Shown here: in pieces, positions 21,412-40,798 of the stretch
Layout: the number at the start of each line of letters is the position of its first letter
How positions within the stretch are numbered: position 1 is the stretch's first letter
NCBI GenBank assembly: GCA_004298155.1
Contig: SCRD01000012.1
Coordinates: forward strand, 1 to 64,000
DNA length: 64,000 nucleotides
From: Acidobacteriota bacterium
GTDB lineage: Bacteria > Acidobacteriota > Terriglobia > UBA7540
Reading direction: 5' to 3'
Program-made: the position numbers and the translations under genes
Notes under the pieces: generated by a model
What the model saw: only the letters and a program-made list of their open reading frames with translations
The model's database searches: none
What the model was told of the DNA's origin: nothing

Positions 21412-21453
21412 CTATTCGTCCTCTTTCCAGCCTAATAGAAATTTGCAGTAAAC

Positions 21454-22878: not shown

Positions 22879-22908
22879 CGATTCCGCCTGAATTTAGCTT
22901 GAATTAGC

Positions 22909-23763: not shown

Positions 23764-23781
23764 GTTTCCTTCCTCGGTACC

Positions 23782-24336
23782 TTAAAAGGTCAACAAACTC
23801 GAGTTTGTAATGACAACAAGAACCATCGCTAAAGCTATTGCTACTCCAAAAGGGAGGCGCAGCGTACCAGGATCATCGAGAGTCACTATGGATTCCCTTG
23901 CACTCATGCCGAATGTGGCGAATGCCCGAATGAGAACTGCCAGGTTGCTCAACGTCTGTTTGACCCGGCGCTTCCTTACTATTTCTACAATTGCCATAAA
24001 GCCGGCAATAAAAATACTTGCCAGCAGCACATTGAGGAATTTTCGCGGTCCGAGGCACGCTCCCAGCGCTATCGTCAGTTTCAAGTCTCCAGCCCCAATG
24101 CCTCGAAGAATGACTGGAATGATCAGGACGGCCGTGGCTATGCCAGCGCCTTCCAACCCGCTCTTGATTCCAGCCCAGCCCGAAAGGATGCCGTTAATGC
24201 CCAGACCTATAATAAATCCCGAAACTGTGAGCCAATTGGGGATACGCCGAAAGCGCCAGTCCAGCCATCCTGCCCATAGCGCCAAAAGCAACGCCACGGC
24301 CCAAGCAGTAAATTGGCTCCATACGATGCTGTGCAT
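23782..24336 (-). CDS. cpaA: Prepilin peptidase, A24 family (TadV/CpaA)
   Basis: A 184-residue polytopic membrane protease that removes the prepilin leader from Flp. The two catalytic aspartates are in WAGWLDWRFRRIPNWLT near residue 26 and in the GAGDLK motif near residue 82. About five to six hydrophobic helices are visible. It lacks the N-terminal zinc/methylase domain of PilD, as is normal for TadV. It lies between the pilin genes and cpaB. Confidence 0.9.
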   Translation of the reverse strand: MHSIVWSQFTAWAVALLLALWAGWLDWRFRRIPNWLTVSGFIIGLGINGILSGWAGIKSGLEGAGIATAVLIIPVILRGIGAGDLKLTIALGACLGPRKFLNVLLASIFIAGFMAIVEIVRKRRVKQTLSNLAVLIRAFATFGMSARESIVTLDDPGTLRLPFGVAIALAMVLVVITNSSLLTF

Positions 24337-24631: not shown

Positions 24632-24805
24632 CTAGCTGGCAGCAGTCAGGTTGCTGGCTGCCTGCGAGAACACGTTGTTGATTGCACTGCCCAGCGTTCC
24701 CATGACCGTGATAGCAGCCAGGGCAATTAGAACCAGAAGTAACGCGTATTCAGTGAGATCCTGGCCTTCTTCTTCATGCCAAAGTCTCTTCAGTAGCTCC
24801 GTCAT
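24632..24805 (-). CDS. flp: Flp family type IVb pilin (copy 1, distal)
   Basis: A 57-residue major pilin precursor. The leader MTELLKRLWHEEEG is cut before QDLTEYALLLVLIALAA, where Glu at +5 and Tyr at +6 are the Flp signature. A hydrophobic helix follows, and the tail ends SNLTAAS. The start ATG at 24805 has GGGAGG upstream; longer open frames read into the intergenic repeat and are not real. It differs from the neighbouring pilin at two residues: leader position 10 (His versus Gln) and position 48 (Gln versus Arg). It is processed by the adjacent A24 peptidase. Confidence 0.95.
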   Translation of the reverse strand: MTELLKRLWHEEEGQDLTEYALLLVLIALAAITVMGTLGSAINNVFSQAASNLTAAS

Positions 24806-24925: not shown

Positions 24926-25099
24926 CTAACTGGCAGCGGTCAGGTTGCTGGCTGCTCTCGAAAACACGTTGTTGATGGCACTGCCGAGCGTTCCCATGAC
25001 AGTGATAGCAGCCAGGGCAATTAGAACCAGAAGCAACGCGTATTCAGTGAGGTCCTGGCCTTCTTCTTCCTGCCACAGCCTCTTAAGTAGCTCCGTCAT
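24926..25099 (-). CDS. flp: Flp family type IVb pilin (copy 2, promoter-proximal)
   Basis: 57 residues, too short for many gene callers. The ATG at 25099 has GGGAGG upstream. The leader is MTELLKRLWQEEEG, the cleavage site precedes QDLTEYALL, and the body is almost identical to copy 1, with Arg instead of Gln at residue 48. The mature pilins thus differ at only one position. It is the first gene of the Tad operon and lies about 57 bases after the predicted sigma-54 start site. Confidence 0.95.
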   Translation of the reverse strand: MTELLKRLWQEEEGQDLTEYALLLVLIALAAITVMGTLGSAINNVFSRAASNLTAAS

Positions 25100-25166: not shown

Positions 25167-25183
25167 AGCATTCGGTGTACCAA
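25167..25183 (-). promoter_or_regulatory. Predicted sigma-54 (-24/-12) promoter of the Tad operon
   Basis: The minus strand reads TTGGTACACCGAATGCT, matching TTGGCACG-N4-TTGCT at the invariant GG and GC with the required 10-base separation. The start site would be about 57 bases before the first pilin codon. Related half-sites (GTAGCGCTCT at 25187-25196 and its inverted form at 25241-25250) lie upstream and could bind the activator, but this is speculative. Confidence 0.55.
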
Positions 25184-25487
25184 ACTGTAGCGCTCTGAAC
25201 ATAATGATCAAAAAATATAGCGGCTTAAGAATCAATGTATTAGAGCGTAGTTTTGGCCGCTTCATTCGATCAGAGCCTTTGCTCATTCATAAGCGTTACC
25301 ATTTGTTGACGCCGCATATCTCGTTTGATTAATTTCTGGTGACGCTTTGGAGCGCATAGTGCTTTTGAAAAAGCTCAGTCTTGCCCAAAGAGCAGGCTCC
25401 ATGATTAGTTTCATCGGCTATGCCCTGTCGGTACTTGATATGGCCCGATAGGCGGAGTGAGAATTCCTGAGGCGACGCAACGAGCGG
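25184..25487. other. AT-rich gap upstream of the pilin promoter
   Basis: No convincing gene on either strand. The first ~120 bases are notably AT-rich compared with the surroundings, as expected for an activator or IHF-type region upstream of a sigma-54 promoter. The rest lies downstream of the 25488 membrane-protein gene and shows no clear terminator. Confidence 0.5.
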
Positions 25488-26999
25488 CTAGTTTCCTTTT
25501 AACTCTTTGAATCGAGGAACATAAATGTAAAAGCGATCATCTTTCCAGAGCTTTTCGGGGTCAGGCACATCCAGGGAGTTAATCACCTGGTAGGAACTCT
25601 TGATCGCTTCACGCGCAGACGGTGTCAGGTAGTAGTTCAGCCAGATGGGATCGGTTTCTGTCCGAAGGTCAAAGTCCAGCACGATCAACGAGAACCAGCC
25701 CGCCCGGATCTGATTAAGGAGATGCCCGTCAGGAACCACACCTCGTCGTGCAAGAAGTTCAGTCTGCAACAAATCGGAAAACGGAGTATCGAACCCTGAC
25801 TGTATCAAATCACCGCCTCTAAGACCTATTGCGCGAGCGTGCGGGGGAAAGTTTCGACGAAAGTAAGTTTGCACCGTCTCACACTGACCGACCGCGCTTG
25901 AATCTGGAGCTGGAGGCGTGTACCATTGGCCAGCAAACAGAGCAATTGCCATGAGAAGCATGACATCTACCGGGTAGGACGCTCTTTCGACCCGCTTTAT
26001 CACGAGAGCGGGGACGAGGACACTCACCATCAGAATAGATTCGAAAAAGTACTGGATAAAAGCTGTTTGTTTTCCAATGGTTGCAATCCCAAGCGCCACA
26101 GCGCAACAGAGATAACAAAGCAGCATTCTGTCCGGATGGGTCCGAAGATACTCAAAGGCCAGCAGTATGGCGACACCAAACATCAGCACAAAGACTAAGA
26201 GTCCGATTTTGAACTGATACCAGGAAAAAAGAGTTGCCTGGTAAAGGAAGAAGTGCCGCCAGAACTGCTGCCCGGGAAAGGCAATCCATTGGAAAAATCC
26301 CAGCAGACCAAAGCCAAACAGCGCTAACGCTCCCAGGAACTGTGCCAGCCGGGCATAGCTTTTTTCAAGGAAAAGAAAGACCATGACAGCTAGCGGCCCG
26401 GCAATATACTGAGGCTTGTAATAAAAACCAAGGCACATGAGAGGCGCGGCAAGGAGAATTGCCCTGCTGTTGCGGAATCTGTATGCTACCAGGAATCCCG
26501 CAAAGAATAAGAGCAGGGAAACGCTGTCTGAAAGCGCTGAAACGCCATGAAAAGTCACAACTCCATAAGATAAGAAGAAGAGAGGGCCCAGGAGCGCGGC
26601 CAGCCAGCTCCGCGTAATCCAGAATGCCAGCAGGCCGCACCCTGCTGCACACCCCAGAATAGCAAGCGCGGAAAGAAGCCGGAGTGGCGTATAGCTTGGT
26701 CTTTCAGGATGGATCAGACTCGATCCAATCAGGTAATACAGGGGCCCGTAGGTGGCGCCGGCAAACCCTTCATCCGATGGCGGCGCATAGATTGGAACTC
26801 CCTGCCCAAGTCGAGCGATTTCGGCCAGAGCGCAGCCTTCATAGCTCTCCTCGCCGGGGTAGGTGATTCGGGTTCGCCAGGATGAGATATTTCGAACAGC
26901 GAAAAAGCCGGCCAGGAGAAAGGCAGTAAGAACACAGGCAAGTCCCGCGCGGGATAATTTCTTTACGGTCTGCCGAGCCGTGAGTTCAGTGGTTGACAT
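25488..26999 (-). CDS. Multi-spanning membrane protein, GT39/GT-C glycosyltransferase-like
   Basis: 503 residues with an N-terminal helix and many further hydrophobic segments (LAALLGPLFFLSYGVVTF, IGLLVFVLMFGVAILLAF). A C-terminal soluble domain ends KLWKDDRFYIYVPRF. The first extracytoplasmic loop contains YPGEESYEGCALAEIARLGQ and YGPLYYLIGSSL. Acidic residues in this loop and the GPLYY motif recall GT-C enzymes (PMT/ArnT type) that use polyprenyl-phosphate sugars. The ATG at 26999 is preferred over a TTG at 27011. It differs from the four paralogues beyond the methyltransferase but lies in the same direction and probably the same transcript. Confidence 0.6.
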   Translation of the reverse strand: MSTTELTARQTVKKLSRAGLACVLTAFLLAGFFAVRNISSWRTRITYPGEESYEGCALAEIARLGQGVPIYAPPSDEGFAGATYGPLYYLIGSSLIHPERPSYTPLRLLSALAILGCAAGCGLLAFWITRSWLAALLGPLFFLSYGVVTFHGVSALSDSVSLLLFFAGFLVAYRFRNSRAILLAAPLMCLGFYYKPQYIAGPLAVMVFLFLEKSYARLAQFLGALALFGFGLLGFFQWIAFPGQQFWRHFFLYQATLFSWYQFKIGLLVFVLMFGVAILLAFEYLRTHPDRMLLCYLCCAVALGIATIGKQTAFIQYFFESILMVSVLVPALVIKRVERASYPVDVMLLMAIALFAGQWYTPPAPDSSAVGQCETVQTYFRRNFPPHARAIGLRGGDLIQSGFDTPFSDLLQTELLARRGVVPDGHLLNQIRAGWFSLIVLDFDLRTETDPIWLNYYLTPSAREAIKSSYQVINSLDVPDPEKLWKDDRFYIYVPRFKELKGN

Positions 27000-27037
27000 A
27001 GGATCCAGCAAGGTGTGAGGCGGTCTCAGGGTCGCGA

Positions 27038-27856
27038 CTACGAATCAGCCTTCTTCTCACCCCACATCACTACGTTCCACGCCAGCCAGCGGATACCCGG
27101 AATTCGTGTGAGCAGAACATCCGCGGAGCGGAGAGGCAGCCACCAGCGAAGGCCCTTTTCACTTTCGTGGGTGATCCGCTTCCAGTAGCGGTCGCGGTTT
27201 GGATGTACGTGGTCTTTTAGATAGTACTTTGCAAACAGCGCAAGAGATGCAATCCAGAATTCGCGATGTCCGAAATTTGAGAAGTACTCACTGGCGAGCT
27301 TTACATCGGCACGGGTCAGGGGCCGCTCGTCTGGCGTTCGTACTTCCGTGGCCATCCTCCGGTACATATTAATCGCTGGATTGTAGGCAAGCGGGTCGTA
27401 GGAGAAGAAGCGCCCGCCGGGTTTTAGAACGCGGCGGATCTCATCGAACATTTTATTTCGGTCCTGCACATGGTGAATGGCATTCGCTATGTAGACGATA
27501 TCGTAGCTCTCCTTGGGGACGTTTAATTCCTCAGCCACGGACACAACGCCTTTGAGCTCCACCCCGAACCGCTTGCCCAGGTTCAGTGATGTCTCAACCA
27601 TTCCAGGTGAGATGTCGAGTGCGGTAACGTCCGCGCCCTGCAGCGCAAAATACACAGAAGATTCGCCAAGGCCGGAACCGATGTCAAGCAGCCGCTTGCC
27701 GGCCAGCGGCCCCATCAGCTTCAGGATAAATCGGTTCTCAACCGCGGTTGGCCCTTCGAAGGACTCGCGCACCAGCACGTCATCGGGGCGGGTGCTTCCT
27801 GCCCAGGCGTCATGAAAAGCGGCTTCGCGGTCATGAGTCATTGCGTCAGGTGTCAT
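27038..27856 (-). CDS. Class I SAM-dependent methyltransferase
   Basis: 272 residues. The SAM-binding motif I is LLDIGSGLGESSVYFALQGA, followed by VTALDISPGMVE, YDIVYIANAIHHV and the RRVLKPGGRFFSYDPLA post-motif. The C-terminal ~100 residues are basic and contain FGHREFWIASLALFAKYYL, a possible membrane-associated amphipathic region. The start codon overlaps the stop of the upstream membrane-protein gene by one base (TGATG), so the two are translationally coupled. The substrate is unknown; context suggests a sugar, lipid or peptide in the surface-modification module. Confidence 0.85.
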   Translation of the reverse strand: MTPDAMTHDREAAFHDAWAGSTRPDDVLVRESFEGPTAVENRFILKLMGPLAGKRLLDIGSGLGESSVYFALQGADVTALDISPGMVETSLNLGKRFGVELKGVVSVAEELNVPKESYDIVYIANAIHHVQDRNKMFDEIRRVLKPGGRFFSYDPLAYNPAINMYRRMATEVRTPDERPLTRADVKLASEYFSNFGHREFWIASLALFAKYYLKDHVHPNRDRYWKRITHESEKGLRWWLPLRSADVLLTRIPGIRWLAWNVVMWGEKKADS

Positions 27857-29445
27857 CAGCTCGCTCCTGCGTTTGCCCTGGCGGCGCAGGAATTCGTGCC
27901 AGATTGGATTTGCGATGGATCCTGTTTGGCGCCTGGTTGGAGCAGCCGGTTCCTGACGAAAATCGAGCTGATTGGATCTTTATAGATCTCTTTCCAGTCA
28001 GCGCGCGCGCGAAGCAGCGTAGCCAGGGGACTTCCATGTTGAATCATGCACGAGTTGATATGGTAGCTTTGCAAGATAGCAAGAGCGTCGGGATGGATAT
28101 CCTGGATACTGATGCAATCCGCGAACACGCCTGCCTGCTCATAGAAATCGCCACGGCCATCGATGAAAACCTTGTGCTCCGGTCCCAAAGCCCAGAGCAG
28201 ATAGCCTCCAAATCCATAATCGTTGTACATGGGTCCGGGCACAAAATTCTGCCGCAGATAGTCGACCGCCGCAACAGGGAAGTTGCTGGCCACCCGCTTA
28301 ACAAGCTCCTTTCGGGTCGGGATTCCCAATCCTAGGCCCAGAATAATCAGAATAATGAGTACCGCATTGACCACGGGCTTGTCGTTTTCCGGCTCGTAGG
28401 CGGGCGCCCAGCGCGCCAGGACGGAAGCGGCCACGGGCGCGAAAACCAGCGCGAACAATATAACAAAGCGCGTGTGAACACAGGTCATATAAGCCGTGAA
28501 CAGGACCAGGAAGAGTTCTTCCACCCGATACGTGAACCGGTACGTAACCTGGGCCAGCAGAAAGGCGAGGAGGAGGGCCAGCATTACCTTTGGCTCCCAC
28601 TGGCTGAAATTTAACGGCAGCCACTCCTGGATGTGCGCCGACTGCTGAGGGAAAAACAGTGCCTTCTCGATTGGAAAAATGAAAGCCTGTCCTCCAAAGG
28701 GCGTGAAAGGAAGCGCCACGCAGCCCAGCAGGAATACAATCTCGAGATGAATTCGCTGGCGCGGCCGCCAGGGTTCCATCGTAAGGCCGCCAGCCGTAAA
28801 GGGGACCAGGCCAGAAATCCAATAGAGCCCTACAACACAGAACCCGAGGATGAATGAGCCGTGGGTGTTGACCCAGACCAGGAAAAGTGGAGGCAGGACC
28901 CAGAGTGATTTCTGCAAGCCCTGCTTGTAGCGCTCCAGGCAGATGAGCGTGATGAGCAGGAAGATATATCCCAGTAACTGGGGGCGGAGCGTAAAGCACA
29001 TTCCGGCCAGTGGGATAATCATGACCGTGGCGGCCATGGCCGCCTTGGAATTGCGGCTTCGCAAGGTGGCGTAATAGTACGTAAGAACGAGGATGGCGCT
29101 GGTCAGCACAAAGAGCAGGACATGCAAGCCTCTGAGCGCAGCAATTTTATATGCAAGCGCCAGCACAACTTCACCCAACCACTCAAAAGCCAATGGAGGA
29201 TTCCCGTAGGCCGTAAACGAGTAGATGTCAGCCTTAAGCCAATGCCCTGTGAGCAGAATTTGCTGGCCGAGTTTCAAATGCCACCACGTATCCGGCTCCA
29301 GCCGGAAGGTGGGGAACATGATGACTGCGTTGAGAGTAACCAGCAGGGCTCCCATCAGCACGGGGAACGAAAAACATTTGCACAGGCCCAGTCGCAGCCC
29401 TGAGTGTTTTTGGTCTTGAGCTTGAACCATGGTTTCTGTTGCCAT
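27856..29445 (-). CDS. Tandem GT-C-like membrane protein, paralogue 4
   Basis: 529 residues and about ten membrane helices. It shares with its three upstream neighbours EPDTWWHLKLGQ in the first outer loop, FEWLGEV, TLRPQLLGYIFL, WVNTHGSF and VFIDGRGDFYEQAGVFAD. It also shares a C-terminal soluble segment ending in IFVRN. An Asp in the first loop followed by an aromatic/His cluster is typical of GT-C glycosyltransferases, but I do not recognise a named family and the activity is unproven. It is coupled to the methyltransferase by a one-base overlap. The ATG at 29445 has a weak ribosome binding site. Confidence 0.75.
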   Translation of the reverse strand: MATETMVQAQDQKHSGLRLGLCKCFSFPVLMGALLVTLNAVIMFPTFRLEPDTWWHLKLGQQILLTGHWLKADIYSFTAYGNPPLAFEWLGEVVLALAYKIAALRGLHVLLFVLTSAILVLTYYYATLRSRNSKAAMAATVMIIPLAGMCFTLRPQLLGYIFLLITLICLERYKQGLQKSLWVLPPLFLVWVNTHGSFILGFCVVGLYWISGLVPFTAGGLTMEPWRPRQRIHLEIVFLLGCVALPFTPFGGQAFIFPIEKALFFPQQSAHIQEWLPLNFSQWEPKVMLALLLAFLLAQVTYRFTYRVEELFLVLFTAYMTCVHTRFVILFALVFAPVAASVLARWAPAYEPENDKPVVNAVLIILIILGLGLGIPTRKELVKRVASNFPVAAVDYLRQNFVPGPMYNDYGFGGYLLWALGPEHKVFIDGRGDFYEQAGVFADCISIQDIHPDALAILQSYHINSCMIQHGSPLATLLRARADWKEIYKDPISSIFVRNRLLQPGAKQDPSQIQSGTNSCAARANAGAS

Positions 29446-29508
29446 AAAGAGTTGCCTGACTGCAAGTGCTAAAGCCCGCGCTTCAGGGCCTCAATTTAAT
29501 ATCCTGTT

Positions 29509-31071
29509 CTAAAGAGCCTTCCCTTCAGCGGCGGTTCCTGCTGTGTGAGTTGTTGTGGCGGCCTCATTCTGTCCTCGAACGAAGATCACGCTCAGCTTGT
29601 CTCTGTAGACTTGTCTCCAATTGCGGCTCGCAGCCAGCAAAGTTGCAAGAGGACTGTCCTGAAGGATCAGACAGGAATTGATCTGGTAACTTTGTAGCAC
29701 AGCCAATGCATCCGGTTTGATATCAATCACGTCCATGTAGTCCGCGAAAACACCGGCCCCCTCGTAAACATCGCCGCGGCCGTCGATAAAGACCTTGTGC
29801 TCGGGAGCCCTCGTCCAGACCAGGTAACCACCAAAGGCGTATTCGTTGAACATGCGGCCTGGAGGAGTATGGTCGCGAAGATAGCGGACAGCCTGCACAG
29901 GATATTCACTGGTGATATGCTCCTGCAGCGTAGCCTGCGATGGCATGTACCAAACAAACGCTGCGACTGCCGCGAGAATAAGAACAGCATTGAGTGCGTA
30001 TTTATCTACACGCGGATCATAGCCAGGCATCCAGCGTGAAAGAACGGAGGCCGCAAGGGGCACAAAGACGATGGCATACAGGATCGCAAATCGGGAGTGT
30101 ACAAATGTCAAGTAGGCAATCAGGAAGAACAAGGCTAACTCTTCCAACCGGTACCGCAAACGGAAAGTAATATTCGCCAGAATGAACCCAGCCGCGAGAA
30201 TCAGTAGCAACTTGGCTTCCCAGAAACTAAAGTTTAAGGGCTGCCATTCCATGACGTCGGCGAAATTGACTGGCAGGGATGTCGCGACTTCCATGGGAAC
30301 GGTAGCCAATCGTGTACCGTAAGGCGTGATAGGAAGGACAGCCACGCTCAACAGGGTGACAAGTTCCAGATGGATCCGCTGCCTCGGCTCCCATTTAATT
30401 GCGTGAAGCCCGCCGCAGGAAAATTCGGTCAATCCGCTCAGCCAATACAATCCGATCACCATGAAGCCCAGCGTGAACGACCCGTGAGTGTTGACCCAGA
30501 GCAGGAAAATCGGAGGCAGCACCCACAGGTGTCTCTGCCTGCCCTGCCGAAACCTCTCCAGCAGGATGAGCGTAACGAGAAGAAGAATATAGCCAAACAA
30601 CTGGGGCCGAAGCGTAAAACACATCGCAGCAACCGGCAGAGTGACAGCGGTTGCAACGAATGCAGCCTTCGAGTTCCGGCAGCATAAGCTGGCATAATAG
30701 TACATGAGCACGACAAAGATGCTGGTTAATGTGATGAGCAGAATGTCCAGGCCGCAGAGCCCTCCCATGCGGTAGGCAAACGCCGTTGCGACTTCGCCGC
30801 CCCACTCATACGCGATGCGGGGCATTCCGTGGACTGTGAATGACCAGTTATCGACCGTTGGCCAATGCCCTGTACCGAGAATGGCCTCTCCGTACTTCAT
30901 ATGCCACCAGGTGTCCGGGTCCAGGCGCAGTGACCTCACTGTCACATAGCTTTCCCCCACAAGGACTGTGCCCAACAGAACCGGAAATGAAAAAACCTTC
31001 CGCAGCATGCGCAGAAAGGCCGACCTCTCCCCTCCCTTTTCCTGGATCGGAATCATGGTCTCTGTCGCCAT
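29509..31071 (-). CDS. Tandem GT-C-like membrane protein, paralogue 3
   Basis: 520 residues starting MATETMIPIQEK, nearly the same opening as paralogue 4 (MATETMVQAQDQ). Motifs are LDPDTWWHMKYGEAIL, AYEWGGEVATAFAY, TLRPQLFGYILL, WVNTHGSFTLGF and VFIDGRGDVYEGAGVFADY. The C-terminus ends SVIFVRGQNEA. The ATG at 31071 is used; a TTG one codon earlier is possible. Closest in sequence to paralogue 1, judging by shared WTVDNWSFTVHGMPR/WPTVDGWSFTVHGMPR-type segments. Probably cotranscribed with its neighbours; gaps are 63 and 30 bases. Confidence 0.75.
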   Translation of the reverse strand: MATETMIPIQEKGGERSAFLRMLRKVFSFPVLLGTVLVGESYVTVRSLRLDPDTWWHMKYGEAILGTGHWPTVDNWSFTVHGMPRIAYEWGGEVATAFAYRMGGLCGLDILLITLTSIFVVLMYYYASLCCRNSKAAFVATAVTLPVAAMCFTLRPQLFGYILLLVTLILLERFRQGRQRHLWVLPPIFLLWVNTHGSFTLGFMVIGLYWLSGLTEFSCGGLHAIKWEPRQRIHLELVTLLSVAVLPITPYGTRLATVPMEVATSLPVNFADVMEWQPLNFSFWEAKLLLILAAGFILANITFRLRYRLEELALFFLIAYLTFVHSRFAILYAIVFVPLAASVLSRWMPGYDPRVDKYALNAVLILAAVAAFVWYMPSQATLQEHITSEYPVQAVRYLRDHTPPGRMFNEYAFGGYLVWTRAPEHKVFIDGRGDVYEGAGVFADYMDVIDIKPDALAVLQSYQINSCLILQDSPLATLLAASRNWRQVYRDKLSVIFVRGQNEAATTTHTAGTAAEGKAL

Positions 31072-31101
31072 CAAAAAACTCTAAACAAAACGCTCTGCAC
31101 T

Positions 31102-32775
31102 TCAGGCGCCTGCACTCAGTATTTTGCGTTTTGTAATCTTGCCGTTCACCGCGGCGGCATTCCTGGGATTGAGTTCTGCGTTCTCACGTACAAAAATCGC
31201 GCTGATTCCATCCCGATAGACCTGTTTCCAGCCAGAGCTTGAAGCCAGCAGAGTTGCGAGCTGGTTATCGGGAGGAACCAGGCAGGACCTTACGTGATAT
31301 TTGCTCAAGAGCGGTTCCACATCAGGCTTAAGGGACATGATGGACATGTAGTCGGCAAGCACGCCTGAATATTCATAGATGTCCAATCTCCCGTCAATAA
31401 ACACCTTGCCCTCAGGCGTGTGGTTCTGGATCAGGTGCCCGCCCCAGAAAAAGTAATTGAACGTCGGCCCTAAATCAGGATGGGCAGCCAGATAGTGGAC
31501 AGCCCCTGTCGGCATCTCGCTCGCCAATTGCTGTTCCAGCCTGGCGCTGGAAGGGAAAAAGACGGCGATCCCGGCGATGATGAGGCCGATCAGCGCGAAA
31601 TTCAAAACAGGGTGGTCTTTAGTTTCCGCGTAAGGGGGAAACCACGGCGCGGTCAGCTCCGCCAGCAAGGGCGCAAAAACAGGTACGAAAAACACCATGA
31701 AACGCGCATGCATGACGGTTTCAGCCGTTGCTATCAGCAGGAGGGCAACATCTTCCAGCCGGATGCGAAATCGCCGCGCTATAACGAGGACCCAGAATGC
31801 GAAAAGCAATACGAGGAATAATTTTCCGTAGGATTCCGACAGGGCCAGAGGCTGCCATTCCTGGACAATCTGAATGATCATAGGCTGGGAGCCGGCCATT
31901 TCCAGCGGATAGGCGGCCAGCTGGGTTCCATAGGGTGTGATGATTGAGGCGATCAGACTGAGGAGAGCGATGAGTTCAAGCTGCCGCCGTTCACGCGGCG
32001 TCCATCGCTGGCCGTAGATATCGCCGAAATGGAGCTCCTTCAAACCGCTCAACCAGTAAATGCCCAGGACTCCGAACCCCAATATAAAAGTGCCATGCGT
32101 GTTGGTCCAGAGCAGGAAAATAAGCGGCAGGACCCAGATGCTCTTTCTGTGACCCTGGCGAAACCTCTTCAGCACAATCAGAGTAATAATCAGGAAAACG
32201 TATCCCAGGAGTTGCGGCCGCAGCGTCCATGAGATAGCAGACAGCGGCAGAAGCACCGCACAGGCTGCGAACGCCGATTTGGAGCTTTTGCTGCCGAGAT
32301 ATGCAAGATAAAAAAGACCCAGGATGATTGCACTGATGATCGCCAAAACGAGGACAGCCAGTCCGTGCAGGTTGCCCACCCGCCAGGCTAAGGCCATAAC
32401 GACTTCACCCAGCCACTCGTAGGCAATCCAGGGGCTTCCGTGCACGGTGAATGAGTAAATGTCGTGAGTCGGCCATATGTGGGTCCTCAGGATCAGGTTG
32501 CCCACTGTGACGTGCCATAGAGTATCGCTTTCCACCCAACGAAGCGACTGAGAGCCTGGCGTCAAGGCCTGATGAATGTTAGTGAAAGTCCCGACATAGG
32601 CGCCGCCAAGCAGTAATGCTGCGAGGAAAGCATGAAAGGAGAATACCTTTCTGAGGACATATCCGATGGTCAAGTCCCGCCGCGATGATGGAGCGTCCCC
32701 CAAACTGCTGACCGGGGCGGTCATGTGGCCGGCGGGCGAATCTAATGGGTCAAAGGCATCGTTTCGATTAATCAT
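31102..32775 (-). CDS. Tandem GT-C-like membrane protein, paralogue 2 (most divergent)
   Basis: 557 residues. It keeps the family plan, but several motifs differ. The first loop reads RWVESDTLWHVTVGNLIL (DTLWH rather than DTWWH), and the C-terminal motif reads VFIDGRLDIYEYSGVLADY rather than DGRGD. Other blocks are YEWLGEVVMALAWR, TLRPQLLGYVFL and WTNTHGTFILGF. The start ATG overlaps the upstream stop as ATGA, indicating translational coupling. Changes at otherwise invariant positions suggest a different substrate or a partner role. Confidence 0.75.
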   Translation of the reverse strand: MINRNDAFDPLDSPAGHMTAPVSSLGDAPSSRRDLTIGYVLRKVFSFHAFLAALLLGGAYVGTFTNIHQALTPGSQSLRWVESDTLWHVTVGNLILRTHIWPTHDIYSFTVHGSPWIAYEWLGEVVMALAWRVGNLHGLAVLVLAIISAIILGLFYLAYLGSKSSKSAFAACAVLLPLSAISWTLRPQLLGYVFLIITLIVLKRFRQGHRKSIWVLPLIFLLWTNTHGTFILGFGVLGIYWLSGLKELHFGDIYGQRWTPRERRQLELIALLSLIASIITPYGTQLAAYPLEMAGSQPMIIQIVQEWQPLALSESYGKLFLVLLFAFWVLVIARRFRIRLEDVALLLIATAETVMHARFMVFFVPVFAPLLAELTAPWFPPYAETKDHPVLNFALIGLIIAGIAVFFPSSARLEQQLASEMPTGAVHYLAAHPDLGPTFNYFFWGGHLIQNHTPEGKVFIDGRLDIYEYSGVLADYMSIMSLKPDVEPLLSKYHVRSCLVPPDNQLATLLASSSGWKQVYRDGISAIFVRENAELNPRNAAAVNGKITKRKILSAGA

Positions 32776-34364
32776 TTTCCAATGGACAAGGCGATTGCCG
32801 CCTTACGAACAAAGATATCGCTGACCCCATCCCTGTGGACTTCCTTCCAATCGTGACTTGAGGCCAGCAGGGCCGCAATGGGAGCATCTCTTTGGATCAG
32901 GCAGGTGTTGATTTGGTAACTTTGAAGGACCGCCATCGCTTCCGGTTTCAATTCCGTGACCGTTGCGTAGTCTGAGAAGACCCCGGCGTGCTCATAGATA
33001 TCGCCTCGCCCATCGATAAAGACTTCGCGCTCCGGCGCCAGTGACCAGACGAGGTAGCCGCCAAAATTGTAGTTGTTCAATATTCGGCCGGGTACGGGAT
33101 GCTGTTGAATGTAGCGGACAGCCTCAACGGGATAATCCTGGGAAATGCTTTTCTGCAATATGAGCTCCGAGGGCAGGAACAATATGAAGGCCAGAATTGC
33201 GAGGAAGGTGAGGGCAGCGTTTAGCGCATACTTGTCGTTTCGAGGATCGTAAGTGGGTGCCCAACGGACAAAAATCGAAGCCGCCAACGGCGCAAAGATA
33301 ATCGCAAACAGGATTGCAAAGCGAAAATGTACGAAGGTTGCGTATAGAACAATAAGGAAAAGCGAGAACTCTTCCAGCCGATAGCGGAATCGGAACGCTG
33401 CCTGGGCGACAAAAAATCCCAACACGAGAACCAGCAACAGCTTGGCCTGCCAGAAGTCTGTATTGATAGGTTGCCATTCAATGATATGGGAAAAATTGAG
33501 GGGCAGGGAACTTGCAACGCCAAAGGGAACAGCGGCCAATCGGGTGCCATAGGGCGTCAAGGGAAGAACCGCGACGCTTAGCAGAGAGACCAGTTCAATG
33601 TGGAGACGTTGCTCCGGCTGCCATCGGACAGCGTAAAGTCCGCCGACAGAAAAGTCTTTGAGCCCGGCTAACCAATAGAGCCCGAGTACCATAAAACCCA
33701 GCGTAAACGACCCGTGAGTATTGACCCAGAGCAGGAATACCAGCGGCAGAACCCATAAATGTTTCTGTTCACCCTGTCGGAACCGCTCCAGCGAGATGAG
33801 TGTTATGAGGAGAAAAATGTAGCCTAACAACTGGGGCCGGAGCGTGAAGCAAAGGACCGTCACAGGCAGCAGGACGAAAGTCGCAAAAAAAGCAGCGTGT
33901 ACGTTCCGGCAACGCAGCCAGGCAAAGTAGTACATCAAAATAATGAACGCACTGGTAAGTGTGATGAGCAGCACGTCCATTCCGCGCAGGCCGCCAAGCT
34001 TATAGGCGAGCGCGGTTAAGACTTCGCCGCCCCATTCATAGGCAACTCGCGGCATCCCGTGGACGGTGAACGACCAGCCATCAACCGTCGGCCAGCGGCC
34101 GGTTTGCAGGATTGTTTCGCCGTACTTGAGGTGCCACCAGGTGTCTGGGTCGAGGCGCAGCCCGCGCACGATTGCAAAGTTGGCTGCCACCAGTATGGCG
34201 CCAAGGAAAGTGGGAAACGAGAAGCACTTCTTCAGAAAGATGATGGCTGAAGACTGAAGGCTAGCTGGTGGAGGCAAATCACGATTCGAGCCCTCATGAT
34301 CATCTTGAGATGGAGGCCCGGTCCCAGGGTCCTCTTGAACTAAGATATGCGAATCTTGCGTCAT
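32772..34364 (-). CDS. Tandem GT-C-like membrane protein, paralogue 1 (first of the array)
   Basis: 530 residues from the ATG at 34364 (MTQDSHILVQEDPG). A TTG at 34436 would add 24 residues that do not align with the paralogues. A hydrophilic Pro/Ser-rich leader of about 45 residues precedes the first helix. Motifs: LDPDTWWHLKYGETIL, AYEWGGEVLTALAY, TLRPQLLGYIFL, WVNTHGSFTLGF and VFIDGRGDIYEHAGVFSDY. It follows the polyprenyl-phosphate glycosyltransferase gene by 135 bases and overlaps paralogue 2 by four bases. The natural inference is that the glycosyltransferase makes the lipid-linked donor these proteins use. Confidence 0.75.
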   Translation of the reverse strand: MTQDSHILVQEDPGTGPPSQDDHEGSNRDLPPPASLQSSAIIFLKKCFSFPTFLGAILVAANFAIVRGLRLDPDTWWHLKYGETILQTGRWPTVDGWSFTVHGMPRVAYEWGGEVLTALAYKLGGLRGMDVLLITLTSAFIILMYYFAWLRCRNVHAAFFATFVLLPVTVLCFTLRPQLLGYIFLLITLISLERFRQGEQKHLWVLPLVFLLWVNTHGSFTLGFMVLGLYWLAGLKDFSVGGLYAVRWQPEQRLHIELVSLLSVAVLPLTPYGTRLAAVPFGVASSLPLNFSHIIEWQPINTDFWQAKLLLVLVLGFFVAQAAFRFRYRLEEFSLFLIVLYATFVHFRFAILFAIIFAPLAASIFVRWAPTYDPRNDKYALNAALTFLAILAFILFLPSELILQKSISQDYPVEAVRYIQQHPVPGRILNNYNFGGYLVWSLAPEREVFIDGRGDIYEHAGVFSDYATVTELKPEAMAVLQSYQINTCLIQRDAPIAALLASSHDWKEVHRDGVSDIFVRKAAIALSIGK

Positions 34365-34499
34365 ATGAGGCTGAATTCCTGATAAAGCTCGAGGTGATCT
34401 GCCTGGGTAACGGGCGTGACGCATTTCCAGCGGCAAGAAAAGAATTCTAGGTTGAACGCCGGCACTCGATCATCCATGAAGCAAATCCAAAACCACGAA

Positions 34500-35621
34500 T
34501 CATTTTGCGATTTTTTCCACCTCATCGATGATTGCAGGCCGGTTCTGCTCACTAAATCCAAGCCGCTCGCGCACAAAATAGAGTGGTCGCCTTTTGGACT
34601 CCCCATAGATTCGCCCGACGTACTCGCCGATGATCCCCAGGCAGATCAGTTGGACGCCGCCGATAAACAGCACGGCAATGAGGGATGAGGTCCAGCCTCT
34701 CACAAGGTGGGTGGCGAAGAATCGCGCGTACAAGGCATAGAAGATCCCCATGATGGCCAACGCGGAGGCGGCGAAGCCCACCCACGTGGCAAGCCGAAGA
34801 GGCGTGATAGAAAACGAAAGCACGCCGTCAGTTGCCAGACGCAGCATCCTGAAAAGGGGGTACTTGGTGGTTCCTGCGTACCGCACGGAACGCGTGTAGG
34901 GAACGGCAACCTGTGAGAACCCAAGCCAGCTTACCATGCCTCGCACAAAGCGGTCGCGTTCCGGCATGGATAGCAGGGCGTCCACCGCGGCTCGGTCCAT
35001 CAGCCGAAAATCGCCGGTGTCCAGAGGGATGCGGGTTTCAGACAGGCGATTGATGAACCGGTAGAATGCCTTCGCCGTCCACAGCTTGAAAGCAGTTTCT
35101 CCGGGCCGGTCAGTGCGCACTCCATACACGACGTCATAACCTTCGCGCCAGCGGGCAAGAAACTCGCCGATTACTTCCGGCGGATCCTGCAGATCGGCGT
35201 CAATTATCACGACTGCATCGCCCGAGGCGTGCTCCAGCCCGGCAGTAATCGCCACCTGATGGCCGAAGTTTCGAGAAAGCCGGACTACCCGGACGTAACT
35301 GTTTGTCGCCTGGAGTTCACGCAGGATAAGCGCCGTCCCGTCCGTGCTTCCGTCGTCAACGTAAATGATTTCAAAAGATATGGCCCTAACCCTCACGAGG
35401 CTTTTGGGCTCGGAGAATGGCCCGGGCCTGATGTCTGACGGCGGAGAATCGCGCCCCACGATCGACTCGAGAGTAGCCGCGAGTCGCCGATGTGTTTCCT
35501 GGAGCCCTTCTTCCTCGTTCTTGCACGGTACGACGACCGAAAGCAACGTCGATCGACCTTCGGCGCGCCTTGGTTCAAGCGTCCCGTACGATCGTCCCTG
35601 GTGGTAGAAAGATTGGCTCAT
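34500..35621 (-). CDS. Family 2 glycosyltransferase, polyprenyl-phosphate sugar synthase type
   Basis: 373 residues. The GT-A domain begins LLSVVVPCKNEEEGL. The metal-binding motifs are YVDDGSTDGT and VVIIDADLQDPPEVI, and the acceptor region is VRTDRPGETAFKLWTAKAFYRFINRL. Two C-terminal membrane helices follow (LATWVGFAASALAIMGIFYALY, SLIAVLFIGGVQLICLGIIGEYVGRIY). This is the DPM1/GtrB/ArnC-like layout, making undecaprenyl-phosphate sugars on the cytosolic face. Between the first two motifs there is an extra ~25-residue Pro/Arg-rich insertion compared with typical members. It is the first gene of the membrane-protein array. Confidence 0.88.
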   Translation of the reverse strand: MSQSFYHQGRSYGTLEPRRAEGRSTLLSVVVPCKNEEEGLQETHRRLAATLESIVGRDSPPSDIRPGPFSEPKSLVRVRAISFEIIYVDDGSTDGTALILRELQATNSYVRVVRLSRNFGHQVAITAGLEHASGDAVVIIDADLQDPPEVIGEFLARWREGYDVVYGVRTDRPGETAFKLWTAKAFYRFINRLSETRIPLDTGDFRLMDRAAVDALLSMPERDRFVRGMVSWLGFSQVAVPYTRSVRYAGTTKYPLFRMLRLATDGVLSFSITPLRLATWVGFAASALAIMGIFYALYARFFATHLVRGWTSSLIAVLFIGGVQLICLGIIGEYVGRIYGESKRRPLYFVRERLGFSEQNRPAIIDEVEKIAK

Positions 35622-36066
35622 TTTTGGACCCCTTGTGATGACAGAGCTCTTTCACCCGTTGCCGCCGGCGGACTGCGGAGGCCGACAACAAACAATGCTA
35701 CATAGCACGTCACGGGCCAACTGGCAAGTGTTCGAGGAGGATTGTGGAGATCTGGGGTTATCTGGTTGATTATTGGCGAGCGTGGGTTAGTTTACAATCC
35801 TTTAATTCCTGCCAAATCGAGATAACTTCTTATTCTTCAATAACTAATGACAACAGCCGGAGACGGACAGCATTCTAAAATGTCACCAGAAGTGGACATG
35901 GCTGGGGTAAGGGGATAAACCAAGCTGTGGGCAGTAGCCTGGCTCCTTGGCACTTCTTATCTCCCCGGGCCATCGCCAAGTGTACGGCACCGGGATAATC
36001 TAATCTCTGCCCGATAGCAAATTTCAGCTTCCCGGCCTTGTAAGACGTTCACCTGCAATCGGCGCC
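35622..36066. other. Intergenic region between tadG and the glycosyltransferase gene
   Basis: 445 bases with no credible gene. It contains the predicted sigma-54 promoter at 35704-35720. Beyond that is a region with a possible long-range stem (CTTGGC near 35953 with GCCAAG near 35982). I looked for a cyclic-di-GMP riboswitch and found no convincing match. Confidence 0.5.
35704..35720 (-). promoter_or_regulatory. Predicted sigma-54 promoter of the glycosyltransferase/membrane-array operon
   Basis: The minus strand reads TTGGCCCGTGACGTGCT. GG and GC are separated by exactly 10 bases, and only two positions differ from TTGGCACG-N4-TTGCT. The start would lie about 70 bases before the glycosyltransferase ATG. 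It shares TTGG-N9-TGC with the sites before the pilin and TadE operons. Confidence 0.55.
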
Positions 36067-37383
36067 CTACTGGATGAGGCGAACTGGAACGGGTGAAGAG
36101 CCTCCCGCGGACACCGCTATGGTACCCCCGCCAGTGCTACCTCCACCACCGCCCTGCACGCAGGAGGAGACATTCATCACGTAGGTCAGGACGTTCCCGC
36201 TGTTGGAGCCATCCTCGTACCTGATGAACAACTGTATGAATCCCATAATCGTTACCGTCGTCGTCGGAGGGCACGAACTTCCGGGGCATAGGACTGTCCC
36301 GTCGTAAACCGGGATTGTAACAACCGAGTCGGAAGAAGCAATCGCCCCCGTCAGGCCGTAGGGATTGTTTGACCCTGCGGTTATCGTCCATGATGCGGGA
36401 TCAAAGAGATCCATACCCGTTGGGCTGCTTTTGGTGCCGCTCTGGTGGATCAGGCAATCAACTCCCTGTTCGGTCGGTCCAACCATATTTCCGGTTATGG
36501 GTTGAATAAGCTTCTGGCCACAAACGATCGAATTGTGGTTGCAGCATTCGATGTTTTGCCGATAAAACGATCCGCTGGACGGTCCGCTTCCGCCTCCGGT
36601 GGTTGCGCAGGCGGGGCAATCGGTTGCTACGGACCCTGCGGGGAGGAATACCGGCCAGAATTTTCCAGGGGAGGCAGTTGCGCCGCCGTTAGGGTCGCCG
36701 GGTTTGACCGTGAATGCTTCACCCTGGACTCCTGTGGGAGCAGGACCAGGATTCTGAATGGCGCCGGTAGTCGGATTAATGAAATAGTCATACCCAGGGC
36801 AGTTCGGATTCCCTGGATTAGCAGTGTGCCCTGGATCGCAATTCGGCAAGAGCCATGGTTTAAGACACTCCGCGCCCACGTTTCCCGGAGTACCCGAAGG
36901 ATTGTACGCTTCCGCCTTGGCTGATGCAGACACATTGGCGGAATCAACGCCAAAAATCTTTACAAAGAAAGTGGGCATGGCGTTGCTGTGGCTCGTGTCT
37001 CGTGCGGCTACAACCTTGATTTGAGGGTCGCTGGTGCTTGTTGAGGGAAAAGTGACGTCGGAACTCGTGATTCCGGGGCTCACACCGGCAATCAGGTTTG
37101 CGTTGCCCACGGCTAAAGCCCTTTGCCGTGCAAGGTCCTGGCAAGTCTGCGAAATATCCGAACCGCCGGCGGATGTGCAGCCCTGCGCCACAAGCGTCTG
37201 AGCGCCTGCAAGCGCCGCCGCATCGGCCGAGCGCTGGGCCTGGCTTCGCCCGACGTAAAGCGAGGCAAGGTCTACGCCCAGCCCGGCCATCCCCAGGACA
37301 AAGACCATTCCGACTGCAATCATTACGATACTCACACCAAGGTCATTACAGCGTTTCTCTGGCGCGCATTCCCGTACTCTCAT
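36067..37383 (-). CDS. TadG-like pilus-associated protein (TadE/G N-terminal helix)
   Basis: 438 residues. The start ATG at 37383 (MRVRECAPEKR) has AAGGAG at 9-base spacing; an ATG at 37425 would overlap tadE by 26 bases and is less likely. The N-terminal GVSIVMIAVGMVFVLGMAGLGVDLASL is the TadG-type anchor, followed by AQRSADAAALAGAQTL, the DUF2134-like signature. The long ectodomain is rich in Gly, Ser, Thr, Pro and Cys, with Cys in pairs (NCDPGH, ECCNHN) that may form disulfides. It ends in a Gly/Ser-rich tail. It is probably surface-exposed and associated with the Tad pilus. It lacks an obvious VWA domain, unlike some TadG proteins. Confidence 0.85.
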   Translation of the reverse strand: MRVRECAPEKRCNDLGVSIVMIAVGMVFVLGMAGLGVDLASLYVGRSQAQRSADAAALAGAQTLVAQGCTSAGGSDISQTCQDLARQRALAVGNANLIAGVSPGITSSDVTFPSTSTSDPQIKVVAARDTSHSNAMPTFFVKIFGVDSANVSASAKAEAYNPSGTPGNVGAECLKPWLLPNCDPGHTANPGNPNCPGYDYFINPTTGAIQNPGPAPTGVQGEAFTVKPGDPNGGATASPGKFWPVFLPAGSVATDCPACATTGGGSGPSSGSFYRQNIECCNHNSIVCGQKLIQPITGNMVGPTEQGVDCLIHQSGTKSSPTGMDLFDPASWTITAGSNNPYGLTGAIASSDSVVTIPVYDGTVLCPGSSCPPTTTVTIMGFIQLFIRYEDGSNSGNVLTYVMNVSSCVQGGGGGSTGGGTIAVSAGGSSPVPVRLIQ

Positions 37384-37399
37384 ACCTGCCTGCTCCTTA

Positions 37400-38059
37400 T
37401 CAAGAGAAGTTCGAAATGGTGGCATCTGTCTGGATTCTAATGGGGTTTGAAAAGGTCGACGACGGAAGCATCAGCTTGATGATGTTATTAAAGCCAAAAG
37501 TCCAGTCGTAAGGGTAATACAAGGTTACCCGTGTTGACTGGATCGAGACGCCGGAAGCGTCCACAACCGGCACGCACCGTTCAACCTCCAACCCATAGTT
37601 AACGCTGCTTGTTCCTGTTGTCGTGTAATATGTTCCAGTGCAAACTCCCGGGGCTGGGTTATAGGTCAGAGCTGTGCCAATGAAGGAGGTGTCGAGGCCT
37701 GCGTTCGTGAGGTAGTTTACCACGTCATCCCTTAACGTCTGTACAGATGCGGGATTGGACAGGGTGATATCGGCGGTCTCAGTGGACTGGTACCTGGCGC
37801 CCTCGCGGACTGCGTTGGCAAGCTTTTGTTTGATGTTGTAAGCACGGGCAAAATCCAACAGGCCTGCCACCATCACCAGAATCATCGGCAACGCCAGTGC
37901 GAATTCAAGCAGCTCTGCACCATCAGTTTCGCTGACGTGCCTGGAAAATCGACTTGCTATAGCAGAGACGGCATTGAGCAACCGCGCCGGCAGACTTTTG
38001 GGGTTGTGCCGCTGCTCCGGATTTCTAAGCGTTCTCATACTGAAGCCTGTTTTTTGCAC
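37400..38059 (-). CDS. TadE-like pseudopilin (copy 1)
   Basis: 219 residues from a GTG at 38059; an ATG at 38038 is also possible. A basic N-terminus precedes DGAELLEFALALPMILVMVAGLLDFARA. This is the TadE signature: a prepilin-like region with an acidic residue and a long helix. AVREGARYQS follows, then a short periplasmic domain with two Cys (GVCTGTYY, VERCVPV). TadE pseudopilins are processed by the A24 peptidase and help initiate Flp pili. It lies between the second tadE and tadG. Confidence 0.88.
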   Translation of the reverse strand: MQKTGFSMRTLRNPEQRHNPKSLPARLLNAVSAIASRFSRHVSETDGAELLEFALALPMILVMVAGLLDFARAYNIKQKLANAVREGARYQSTETADITLSNPASVQTLRDDVVNYLTNAGLDTSFIGTALTYNPAPGVCTGTYYTTTGTSSVNYGLEVERCVPVVDASGVSIQSTRVTLYYPYDWTFGFNNIIKLMLPSSTFSNPIRIQTDATISNFS

Positions 38060-38078
38060 TGACTTTCTGTCTCCCTGC

Positions 38079-38645
38079 TTAGTAACTGGTTCCTATTGGG
38101 CAGATTGCCGGTTGGTTCTCAAGCCGCATACGGACTGTTGTCGAAAGATTGATGGTGGATAAATTAACGCTCGTGAAGGGAAGCGAGAAAGTATAGGGAT
38201 ATGCAAACGTGAGCTCTATGCCACAAACATGGGGGGGCGTGCCGTTCGGGTCCATCTGGACGTAAGTAATTGAAGAGTTCGCGACTAATGTGGGGTCAAG
38301 ATTGTCCGACTGCAGGACCGGACCCACAAAATTGGTCCAGATATCGGTGGAGGTGTAGTTCGTAGCCCCCGAACAATACGCAGAGTTTGCGCACGGCGTC
38401 AGAACAGCTGACTTTGCGCCCTCGCGCGCCGCCCGTGTGATGGTCTGGTACACATTCCAGGCCCGGCCGAAAGTAACGATCCCAAGCAATAACATCAAGA
38501 GGATAGGGAGGACAACCGCGGCTTCAACCAGTTCAGCGCCGGACTCTTCTTTCCAGTTTGTAATCAGTTGGACACAAAAACGGCTAGCCTGTGTTCCCAA
38601 CGAATGACACATGCGCCCCCGTCCTATCCCTCGGGTGTAAAGCAT
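38079..38645 (-). CDS. TadE-like pseudopilin (copy 2, first gene)
   Basis: 188 residues. EESGAELVEAAVVLPILLMLLLGIVTFGRAWNVYQTITRAAREGA is the TadE helix and following segment (read from positions near 38550 to 38410). The C-terminal domain contains paired Cys (TPCANSAYC) and a β-rich Thr/Ser segment. The ATG at 38645 has AAGGGA upstream; an ATG at 38612 is an alternative. It is the first gene of the tadE-tadE-tadG operon and lies downstream of a predicted sigma-54 promoter. Confidence 0.88.
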   Translation of the reverse strand: MLYTRGIGRGRMCHSLGTQASRFCVQLITNWKEESGAELVEAAVVLPILLMLLLGIVTFGRAWNVYQTITRAAREGAKSAVLTPCANSAYCSGATNYTSTDIWTNFVGPVLQSDNLDPTLVANSSITYVQMDPNGTPPHVCGIELTFAYPYTFSLPFTSVNLSTINLSTTVRMRLENQPAICPIGTSY

Positions 38646-38701
38646 AAGAGATAATCCCTTTCAAATGTAGCAAATCCCAATCTTCGCCACCGGAAACATG
38701 G

Positions 38702-38717
38702 GCAACTTGCTTGCCAA
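38702..38717 (-). promoter_or_regulatory. Predicted sigma-54 promoter of the tadE-tadE-tadG operon
   Basis: The minus strand reads TTGGCAAGCAAGTTGC, very close to TTGGCACG-N4-TTGC with exact GG/GC spacing. The predicted start is about 45 bases before the ATG at 38645. The same bases also form a perfect dyad (GGCAA-N5-TTGCC), so a repressor-type site is an alternative reading. Confidence 0.6.
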
Positions 38718-38748: not shown

Positions 38749-38872
38749 AAACCTGCCAGCAATCCCTTATATTAGTACCGAGGAATCTACCTATTGTCAA
38801 TAGGGTAAACACCCAGAGCATCCATTTAGTTATTACCATAGACACAAACTTCACACCCAAAATTGTCTATCG

Positions 38873-39787
38873 TCAGGCCCGGAGCGACTGAAAAGCAGGC
38901 AGCATTTCGAACGGCTTGCGCGTACTGGAGATCGTTTCGCCCAACTGCTCAATCCTTTCTTCGTCCATATTTCCCAGGAGCAGGGAAGCGCGCTTGAGGT
39001 AGTCAATGCGCGCTGGAACAAGCCCCATGATCCGGGCACAAGTAGCGTCTACGGCCACGGCGTCGTCGCCGGCAACCAGGACTCCGCATGCCTTGGGAGT
39101 TCCCTGGATGGGGCCGTTTCCTTCCATCCCAAGGATGCCATCCACGATGGCGAAATCCGGTCGGACCGTGCTGTTGATATCGAGGATCGACTTGCTGATG
39201 CCCGCCCAGTGGAGCACGTTTTTGGGCCATCCGTAACAATTTCCAGGCACAATGCCGAACATGTTCTTAAGCGACAGGGTGACTCCAACCCAGTGGTGGG
39301 TCTTCATCTTGGGCATTGAGACTACGAAGTCCGCTGCCAGGACCGTCTTTGGCAGGCACAGCGACTTAAGCTTTGAGGCATGCGTACGCGTTGAGACTTG
39401 CGAAACTTCGTCTGTATTCAGGTCGACGAAACGGCGCTCCAACGGGCCCAGGTAGTCCCTCACACGCAGCACTTCAAGAATTCCTTCGGTATCGCGCTCG
39501 TGCCCAGGCCCTTCCGCAATGACGACAGATTTTGCGCCCATTCGCAGAAACGCTTCGCGCGCCGCCCTGATCACCACGGGGTGTGTGTTGATGGTCCCTT
39601 CAAGATTGGGTTCGACGAAGTTCGGTTTGATCAGGACCGATTTGGCGCGCACAGGTGGCTCGAGTTCCTTGAGCGTTTCCCACAGGATTGCCTCCACATC
39701 AGCCTCATAACTGGAGACGGCCCTGATCGCTACGCTCGAAGGCGAGCGGTGGAAGGGCGGGACCAGGCGCGTGTTGGAGTAGCTCAT
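38873..39787 (-). CDS. DUF362 domain-containing protein
   Basis: 304 residues from the ATG at 39787, which overlaps the upstream stop as ATGA. The DUF362 domain is recognisable from VLIKPNFVEPNLEGTINTHP, EGPGHERDTEGILE, VSMPKMKTHHWVGVTLSLKN, FAIVDGILGMEGNGP and VAGDDAVAVDATCARIMG. No ferredoxin-type CxxC cluster is present, although many DUF362 proteins carry one. Function is not established for the family. It is the last gene of the operon containing the sigma-54 regulator and the cyclase-repeat protein. Confidence 0.9.
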   Translation of the reverse strand: MSYSNTRLVPPFHRSPSSVAIRAVSSYEADVEAILWETLKELEPPVRAKSVLIKPNFVEPNLEGTINTHPVVIRAAREAFLRMGAKSVVIAEGPGHERDTEGILEVLRVRDYLGPLERRFVDLNTDEVSQVSTRTHASKLKSLCLPKTVLAADFVVSMPKMKTHHWVGVTLSLKNMFGIVPGNCYGWPKNVLHWAGISKSILDINSTVRPDFAIVDGILGMEGNGPIQGTPKACGVLVAGDDAVAVDATCARIMGLVPARIDYLKRASLLLGNMDEERIEQLGETISSTRKPFEMLPAFQSLRA

Positions 39788-40773: not shown

Positions 40774-40798
40774 TCCTGATACCCGGGGGTCGGACGAA

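Follow-up and report, generated by a model that had tools for sequence, protein, structure and literature searches.

How are the separate operons of a Tad pilus locus controlled, and by which regulator? Tad pili are widespread adhesion fibres, and we consider here the Tad/Flp locus on a 64,000-nucleotide stretch of DNA from an Acidobacteriota bacterium (assembly GCA_004298155.1, contig SCRD01000012.1, positions 1 to 64,000; hereafter the window), part of a genome of 5.2 Mb in 29 contigs (G000; other genomes and loci are cited by our own G and L handles). An earlier reading of the sequence, the original prediction, had proposed that sigma-54 coordinately controls three operons of this locus, namely the Flp pilins with the Tad machine, an array of membrane proteins headed by a GT2 glycosyltransferase gene (GT2), and tadE-tadE-tadG. 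Our analysis points to a sigma-54-controlled Tad pilus regulon driven by the neighbouring activator through a bipartite DNA element, a reading to which we assign a probability of roughly 0.6. Coordinated control holds up for the Flp operon, whose promoter is conserved and tracks the activator, and for the GT2 operon, which has a promoter site and a palindrome; the case for tadE is incomplete, no copy of the element being present.

The promoter sites (Table 1) were scored on both strands of the 64 kb with a sigma-54 matrix over all conserved positions. GG-N10-GC can be read directly on the minus strand, which is the coding strand, in all three operon upstream regions, as had been claimed, and flanking consensus and promoter position accompany it (14.1-14.8 bits, 55-82 bp before the starts). 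The third of the intervals originally given was right and the first two were one base too wide, and the distance to the start codon, claimed as 45-70 bases, measures 67, 82 and 55 bp and is thus partly off. By this matrix these are three of the four sites of at least 14 bits in the 64 kb, the fourth (14113, plus strand) lying within an open reading frame, and shuffles of the upstream regions that keep neighbour frequencies match the observed score in 0.46% (flp), 0.39% (GT2) and 0.24% (tadE1) of cases. The bare TTGG-N9-TGC motif stays at background: the two strands of the window together hold 18 matches against 13.9 expected, a number reached in 19 of 100 shuffles. It is therefore uninformative alone. 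Hence, the chance rate first quoted for the seven bases was about right, and the suggestion that three hits are notable fails for the bare motif but stands for the full matrix. In the whole genome, TTGGCNNGN5TGC has 94 matches as opposed to 45 for the reversed pattern, which is a general sign of sigma-54 use, and rpoN is present in a single copy.

Conservation in relatives, a matter which the original prediction had raised, favours the Flp promoter. The congener G038 keeps all three sites (tadE 12.8, GT2 14.1 and flp 14.7 bits), while G037 keeps the tadE site (17.4 bits), has no GT2 match, and has its flp promoter beyond the contig end. Two genomes of another genus in the same family differ, G028 keeping both tadE (14.4 bits) and flp (15.8 bits) and G027 keeping flp (14.3 bits) but not tadE. 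In the 13 loci whose contig also holds the activator, the best site in the 300 bp upstream of the first Flp gene falls 52-70 bp from that gene in all but one. Among 21 Acidobacteriota activator loci, a Flp site at 45-80 bp reaches at least 8 bits in 17 and at least 10 bits in 15, compared with 0 of the 24 Flp-bearing Tad loci that lack the activator, at either threshold, and with 1.8% and 0.8%, respectively, of random windows of equal size. It should be noted that the 21 loci include L104 and L106, in which the activator gene is partly or wholly lost at the contig end, and leave out loci with no Flp or a contig ending before its promoter, loci with the activator not beside the Tad cluster, and duplicate rows (in all L102, L107-L110, L114, L129, L208-L210, L213-L215, L217, L220-L226, L239-L241); L216 stands for L108, and L119 and L121 are replaced by longer G033 and G034 stretches. 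Also outside the 21 are L244-L246, where the Pep homologue is only 32-33% identical. The same is true of L242 and L243, which do enter the 23-region element and IHF counts given below and have Flp sigma-54 sites of 11.4 and 10.3 bits (the L242 element scores 20.6 bits). Predicted sigma-54 control of the Flp/Tad operon is thus well supported, since the site is conserved beyond the genus and the family and tracks the neighbouring activator.

The adjoining gene does encode a sigma-54 activator with GAFTGA, as had been proposed. Its product combines an AAA+ domain (Sigma54_activat, 233 bits), a GAFTGA loop at residue 225 and a helix-turn-helix (HTH), the features of a bacterial enhancer binding protein. 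GAFTGA is found in 26 of 27 homologues, with GAYTGA in the remaining one, and the HTH stretch ARGYLHRL is nearly invariant over the 27 (which include L222, with a divergent HTH and possibly a paralogue), in keeping with a conserved DNA site. The receiver is degenerate: the phospho-acceptor Asp is present in all 27 homologues and the switch Lys in none, S, N, G or C taking its place, a register confirmed by alignment to the NtrC-family structure 4l4u (LTKP versus LSSP). The protein thus lacks the combination of Asp and switch Lys that marks a canonical NtrC-type response regulator, its Pfam receiver score of 21 falls below the cut-off of 30.2, and the best NCBIfam model, the PEP-CTERM-box response regulator, is also below its cut-off. 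Since the switch lysine is absent, ordinary phosphotransfer is unlikely as the activating signal. Autoregulation through sigma-54 was considered and rejected: within the genus of the window, nothing before the activator gene scores above 4.2 bits, and no site is present, although one stands there in some relatives. Upstream of the activator, the three genomes of this genus do share a conserved sequence that is not a sigma-54 site, CTTTAGTACCATTGC (42385-42399), and G028 has a closely similar one. The activator also has close homologues on stretches with no matched Tad cluster (L223 on contig 10 of G027, L224 on contig 116 of G037, and L210 in G305), which means that the family either has other roles or has lost its neighbours.

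What might this activator recognize? When the Flp upstream regions of two genera are aligned, conserved islands stand out at the sigma-54 site, the ribosome-binding region, a palindrome (GTCAACAAATGGTAAC) and, further up, GTCACCA, giving a composite in which GTCACCA is followed by GTCNMC-N4-GGTRAC starting 33 bp further on. Of 23 Flp upstream regions, 8 have GTCACC and the palindrome at a distance of exactly 33 bases, and no other spacing was found; in 300 rounds of shuffling no offset was matched more than once. With a matrix built from eight distinct Flp elements, 11 loci show an element, at 200-230 or 362-364 bp upstream of Flp; the majority are sites on which the matrix was trained. When the groups are excluded one at a time, 16 of the 21 Flp upstream regions score above 95% of random 400-bp pieces, among which the true sites are included. 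Between element and promoter, WATCAANNNNTTR, which we take to be the IHF consensus, has an exact match in 4 of the 23 regions (0.1 expected) and a match with at most one mismatch in 9 (2.1 expected), counts that are inflated by the relatedness of the sequences.

A palindrome of the same type lies upstream of GT2, where it is the second-best match of the Flp matrix in the 64 kb (15.7 bits) and is kept in G038 (13.2 bits); when the window's genus is left out of the matrix, the GT2 upstream region still scores 15.2 bits (p 0.01). The Flp element of L212, TGTCCACCTCTGGTGACG, resembles TGTCCACTTCTGGTGACA upstream of GT2 in the window. In L109 and L111 a gene of the membrane array has an element of the Flp type before it (20.6 bits), and the sigma-54 candidates that follow this element are weak (10.6 and 7.7 bits). 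That the glycosyltransferase operon is co-controlled is a prediction supported by its sigma-54 site and the shared palindrome, both of which are kept in one congener. A pattern covering the two sites, GTCAMCARAWGKKRAC, is found exactly in the genome only upstream of Flp and GT2 (5 matches against 2 in the control with at most one mismatch) and was set aside as fitted to both sites.

The composite is also specific to these promoters. Each of its seven exact matches in 399 genomes of the class (G000, G038, G027, G028, G077, G243 and G258) is upstream of Flp and falls in one of the 28 genomes of that set that hold the activator at E 1e-130; with at most one mismatch there are 19 matches compared with 7 for the reversed control. 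The short element GTCAMCAAAANNTGAC alone was uninformative in the same genomes (15 matches as opposed to 13 for the reversed pattern), four of the 15 lying upstream of Flp, all in activator genomes.

From the computed sites, their conservation, their co-occurrence with the activator and the specificity of the element, we infer binding, looping, activation and the activator's identity as follows. Upstream of flp1 the activator would bind both GTCACCA and GTCNMC-N4-GGTRAC; as 33 bp amount to about three helical turns, its two dimers would probably sit on one face of the DNA. Looping of the DNA, perhaps aided by an IHF-like bend, would put the AAA+ ring within reach of a sigma-54 polymerase poised at the -24/-12 site, 67 bp from the start of flp1, leading to transcription of the Flp pilins and the Tad machine. 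The same activator may act through one palindrome on the glycosyltransferase operon with its oligosaccharyltransferase-like GT-C proteins, and tadE-tadE-tadG, with a sigma-54 promoter of its own, would probably belong to the regulon too, via some other element.

Several observations weigh against this proposal. Four Flp promoters have weak sites at 45-80 bp (L112 6.4, L211 4.7, L212 1.5 and L218 5.8 bits) and all four carry the 33-bp element; L211 and L212 have candidates of 10.7 and 10.2 bits further upstream of Flp, and there is no such candidate in L112 and L218. Sigma-54 sites are weak in three of the seven Flp promoters with an exact composite, and of the 12 one-mismatch matches, one (G148) is a Flp promoter and the other 11 are near the control level of 7. 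The composite pattern was derived from these same promoters, so that the genome search shows specificity and not sensitivity. Moreover, most loci without the activator are distant (for example Bryobacterales, Planctomycetota and Melainabacteria), and the only two of the same family, G033 and G034, have a similar layout, no activator and also no Flp site. The GT2 promoter could be compared in one congener only (G038), and two further points, concerning tadE1 and the number of activators in the genome, bear on the alternatives that follow.

It is conceivable, though we think it unlikely, that Flp and GT2 form one regulon and that the sigma-54 promoter of tadE-tadE-tadG answers to another activator or cue. 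The tadE1 upstream region has no match to the element (score 2.3, p 0.70, with the window's genus left out of the matrix) and carries instead a different genus-conserved palindrome (TTTACCCTATTGACAATAGGT); its half-sites are similar to those of the element but differently spaced, and it was not accepted as a copy. In the 300 bp upstream of tadE1, a site of at least 11.9 bits is present in 8 of 13 activator loci, three of these sites lying 1-12 bp from an extrapolated start, and no sigma-54 site was found in the other 5. However, the operon shares the promoter class and adjoins the activator, and, as is established for Tad pili, the tadE/tadG products are needed by the same machine. Because the shared element is absent there, membership of tadE-tadE-tadG rests on promoter class and proximity; the case that it is a member is weaker than for the other operons, coming from a good sigma-54 site that is kept within the genus and by some members of the wider group.

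A second and still less probable alternative is that the promoters are sigma-54-dependent but driven by another activator, the neighbour serving something else. The sigma-54 activator domain has 18 matches in the G000 genome, 13 of them with E below 1e-60, so that there are 12 strong activator-domain genes besides the neighbour, and G037 has a second close homologue of the latter; nevertheless, the Flp site and the element go together with the occurrence of this activator beside the locus, and its HTH helix is nearly invariant. With 13 strong candidates in the genome, the neighbour is the likeliest activator of these promoters rather than a proven one. Finally, that the three sites are chance matches and other sigma factors drive the operons is very improbable, given their scores, position and cross-genus conservation, despite the background frequency of the bare motif and an 18.8-bit sigma-54-like sequence within the TadC gene of G034 (L071 803-819), a locus without the activator, which indicates that lone strong matches may be chance.

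Thus a neighbour-driven sigma-54 regulon remains our preferred reading, and the features on which it draws are collected in Table 1.

Table 1. Features of the Tad/Flp locus and its predicted control sequences, in window coordinates
Feature	Position	Strand	Remarks
Predicted sigma-54 (-24/-12) site, Flp/Tad operon, TTGGTACACCGAATGC	25168-25183	-	14.2 bits, 67 bp before flp1
Predicted sigma-54 site, glycosyltransferase operon, TTGGCCCGTGACGTGC	35705-35720	-	14.1 bits, 82 bp before GT2
Predicted sigma-54 site, tadE-tadE-tadG operon, TTGGCAAGCAAGTTGC	38702-38717	-	14.8 bits, 55 bp before tadE1
Proximal palindrome of Flp upstream element, GTCAACAAATGGTAAC	25295..25310	-	
Distal half, GTCACCA	25337..25343	-	Starts 33 bp before palindrome; composite 25295-25343
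IHF-like candidate, AATCAATGTATTA	25230..25242	+	Between element and Flp promoter
Palindrome upstream of GT2, GTCACCAGAAGTGGAC	35882..35897	+	Same type as Flp element
Genus-conserved palindrome upstream of tadE1 site, TTTACCCTATTGACAATAGGT	38789..38809	-	
Sigma-54 activator	40799..42238	-	Degenerate receiver, AAA+ with GAFTGA, Fis-type HTH
DUF362 and squalene-cyclase-like genes	38873..40914	-	Between activator and tadE1; not assigned to the proposed regulon
tadE1, tadE2, tadG pseudopilins	36067..38645	-	TadE and Tad Pfam matches
GT2 glycosyltransferase	34500..35621	-	Opens array operon; Glycos_transf_2 117 bits
Five related polytopic GT-C-like proteins and one methyltransferase	25488..34436	-	Methyltransferase at 27038-27856
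flp1 pilin	24926..25099	-	Flp_Fap 32.4 bits
flp2 pilin	24632..24805	-	Near-identical to flp1
Tad machine: prepilin peptidase, CpaB, secretin, CpaE, CpaF, TadB, TadC	17002..24336	-	Pfam matches

The region reads on the minus strand as activator, squalene-cyclase-like gene, DUF362, tadE1, tadE2, tadG and GT2, followed by the five polytopic proteins with the methyltransferase among them, two Flp pilins, prepilin peptidase, CpaB, secretin, CpaE, CpaF, TadB and TadC. With Flp pilins, prepilin peptidase, CpaB, secretin, CpaE, CpaF, two T2SSF proteins and TadE/TadG all present, it is a Tad/Flp pilus locus. The pilin genes are tandem near-identical copies (24632-25099) with a duplicated leader region. 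The squalene-cyclase-like/DUF362 pair recurs in relatives from Acidobacteriota, Planctomycetota and Melainabacteria/Cyanobacteria (L123-L180), and in many of their loci adjoins Tad genes without the activator. A second TadE-TadE-TadG cluster, away from the Tad locus of the window, lies on contig 9 of the same genome (L073 4491-7211) and is also found in relatives (L074, L075, L076 and L077).

The five polytopic array proteins have no meaningful Pfam match, with weak unrelated matches only (up to E 5), and are tandem paralogues that carry a DPDTWWH motif and differ in copy number among relatives. The protein encoded at 32772-34436, modelled with 26 relatives (mean pLDDT 87.2, pTM 0.85), has the yeast oligosaccharyltransferase as its best structural match (Z 21.1, root-mean-square deviation 4.3, 436 residues, 12% identity), followed by AglB (Z 19.0) and PglB (17.2), with other GT-C enzymes scoring lower, for instance ArnT at 14.6. 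The model thus has an STT3-type GT-C fold that Pfam sequence matching does not reveal, and a glycosyltransferase role for this protein appears likely from the fold. An N-glycosylation sequon at pilin residue 52 was set aside as evidence, as it is found in both window pilins and many relatives but not in G038, which has the same array; moreover, pilins often carry sequons in loci where the array is missing. We hold only tentatively, and consider rather unlikely, a fuller scenario of a glycopilus regulon, in which an activator with a degenerate, lysine-less receiver, responding to a cue other than an ordinary kinase signal, would switch on the Tad pilus together with an oligosaccharyltransferase-like array that decorates the pilus or pseudopilins, via a bipartite element of fixed three-turn spacing.

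Among known systems, the literature describes DVU2114 of Desulfovibrio vulgaris Hildenborough as a sigma-54-dependent response regulator that targets pilin genes followed by cpa/Tad-like assembly genes (PMC3333781, PMC4641369). The resemblance, drawn from the published description, extends to an NtrC-family activator with GAFTGA, pilin targets beside cpa/Tad genes and sigma-54 promoters; DVU2114 is reported as a two-component response regulator, whereas in the present activator the switch lysine is missing from the receiver, and co-control apparently extends to a glycosyltransferase array. Type IV pilin genes of Geobacter, Myxococcus and Pseudomonas are likewise under sigma-54 and response regulators (as cited in PMC3333781). 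They share with the present locus the placing of pilus genes under a sigma-54 activator, but belong to another pilus subclass with another activator. We know of no bipartite element in the control of these type IV pilins. In Pectobacterium, according to PMC3767616, a flanking two-component system controls Flp/Tad, and deletion of the sigma-54 activator VasH left flp/tad expression unchanged by quantitative PCR. Control by a regulator encoded beside the cluster is thus common to both, being predicted here, while the lack of an effect of VasH on flp/tad differs from our proposal. Pili and surface polysaccharide genes as sigma-54 targets are in line with the general thesis that sigma-54 governs the bacterial exterior (PMC3162934), in the main text of which no mention of Acidobacteriota, Flp or Tad was found. 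A search of the open-licence literature found nothing on Tad pilus control in Acidobacteriota or on this locus, which is not proof of absence, and no description of the bipartite element, which looks new. As sigma-54 control of Flp/Tad is already known in Desulfovibrio vulgaris, the present locus is a lineage-specific case of a known type of regulation. It offers a candidate activator, a specific DNA element and three promoters, all directly testable, links the pilus to an array of oligosaccharyltransferase-like proteins, and raises the question of what activates an enhancer binding protein whose receiver misses a residue of the usual switch.

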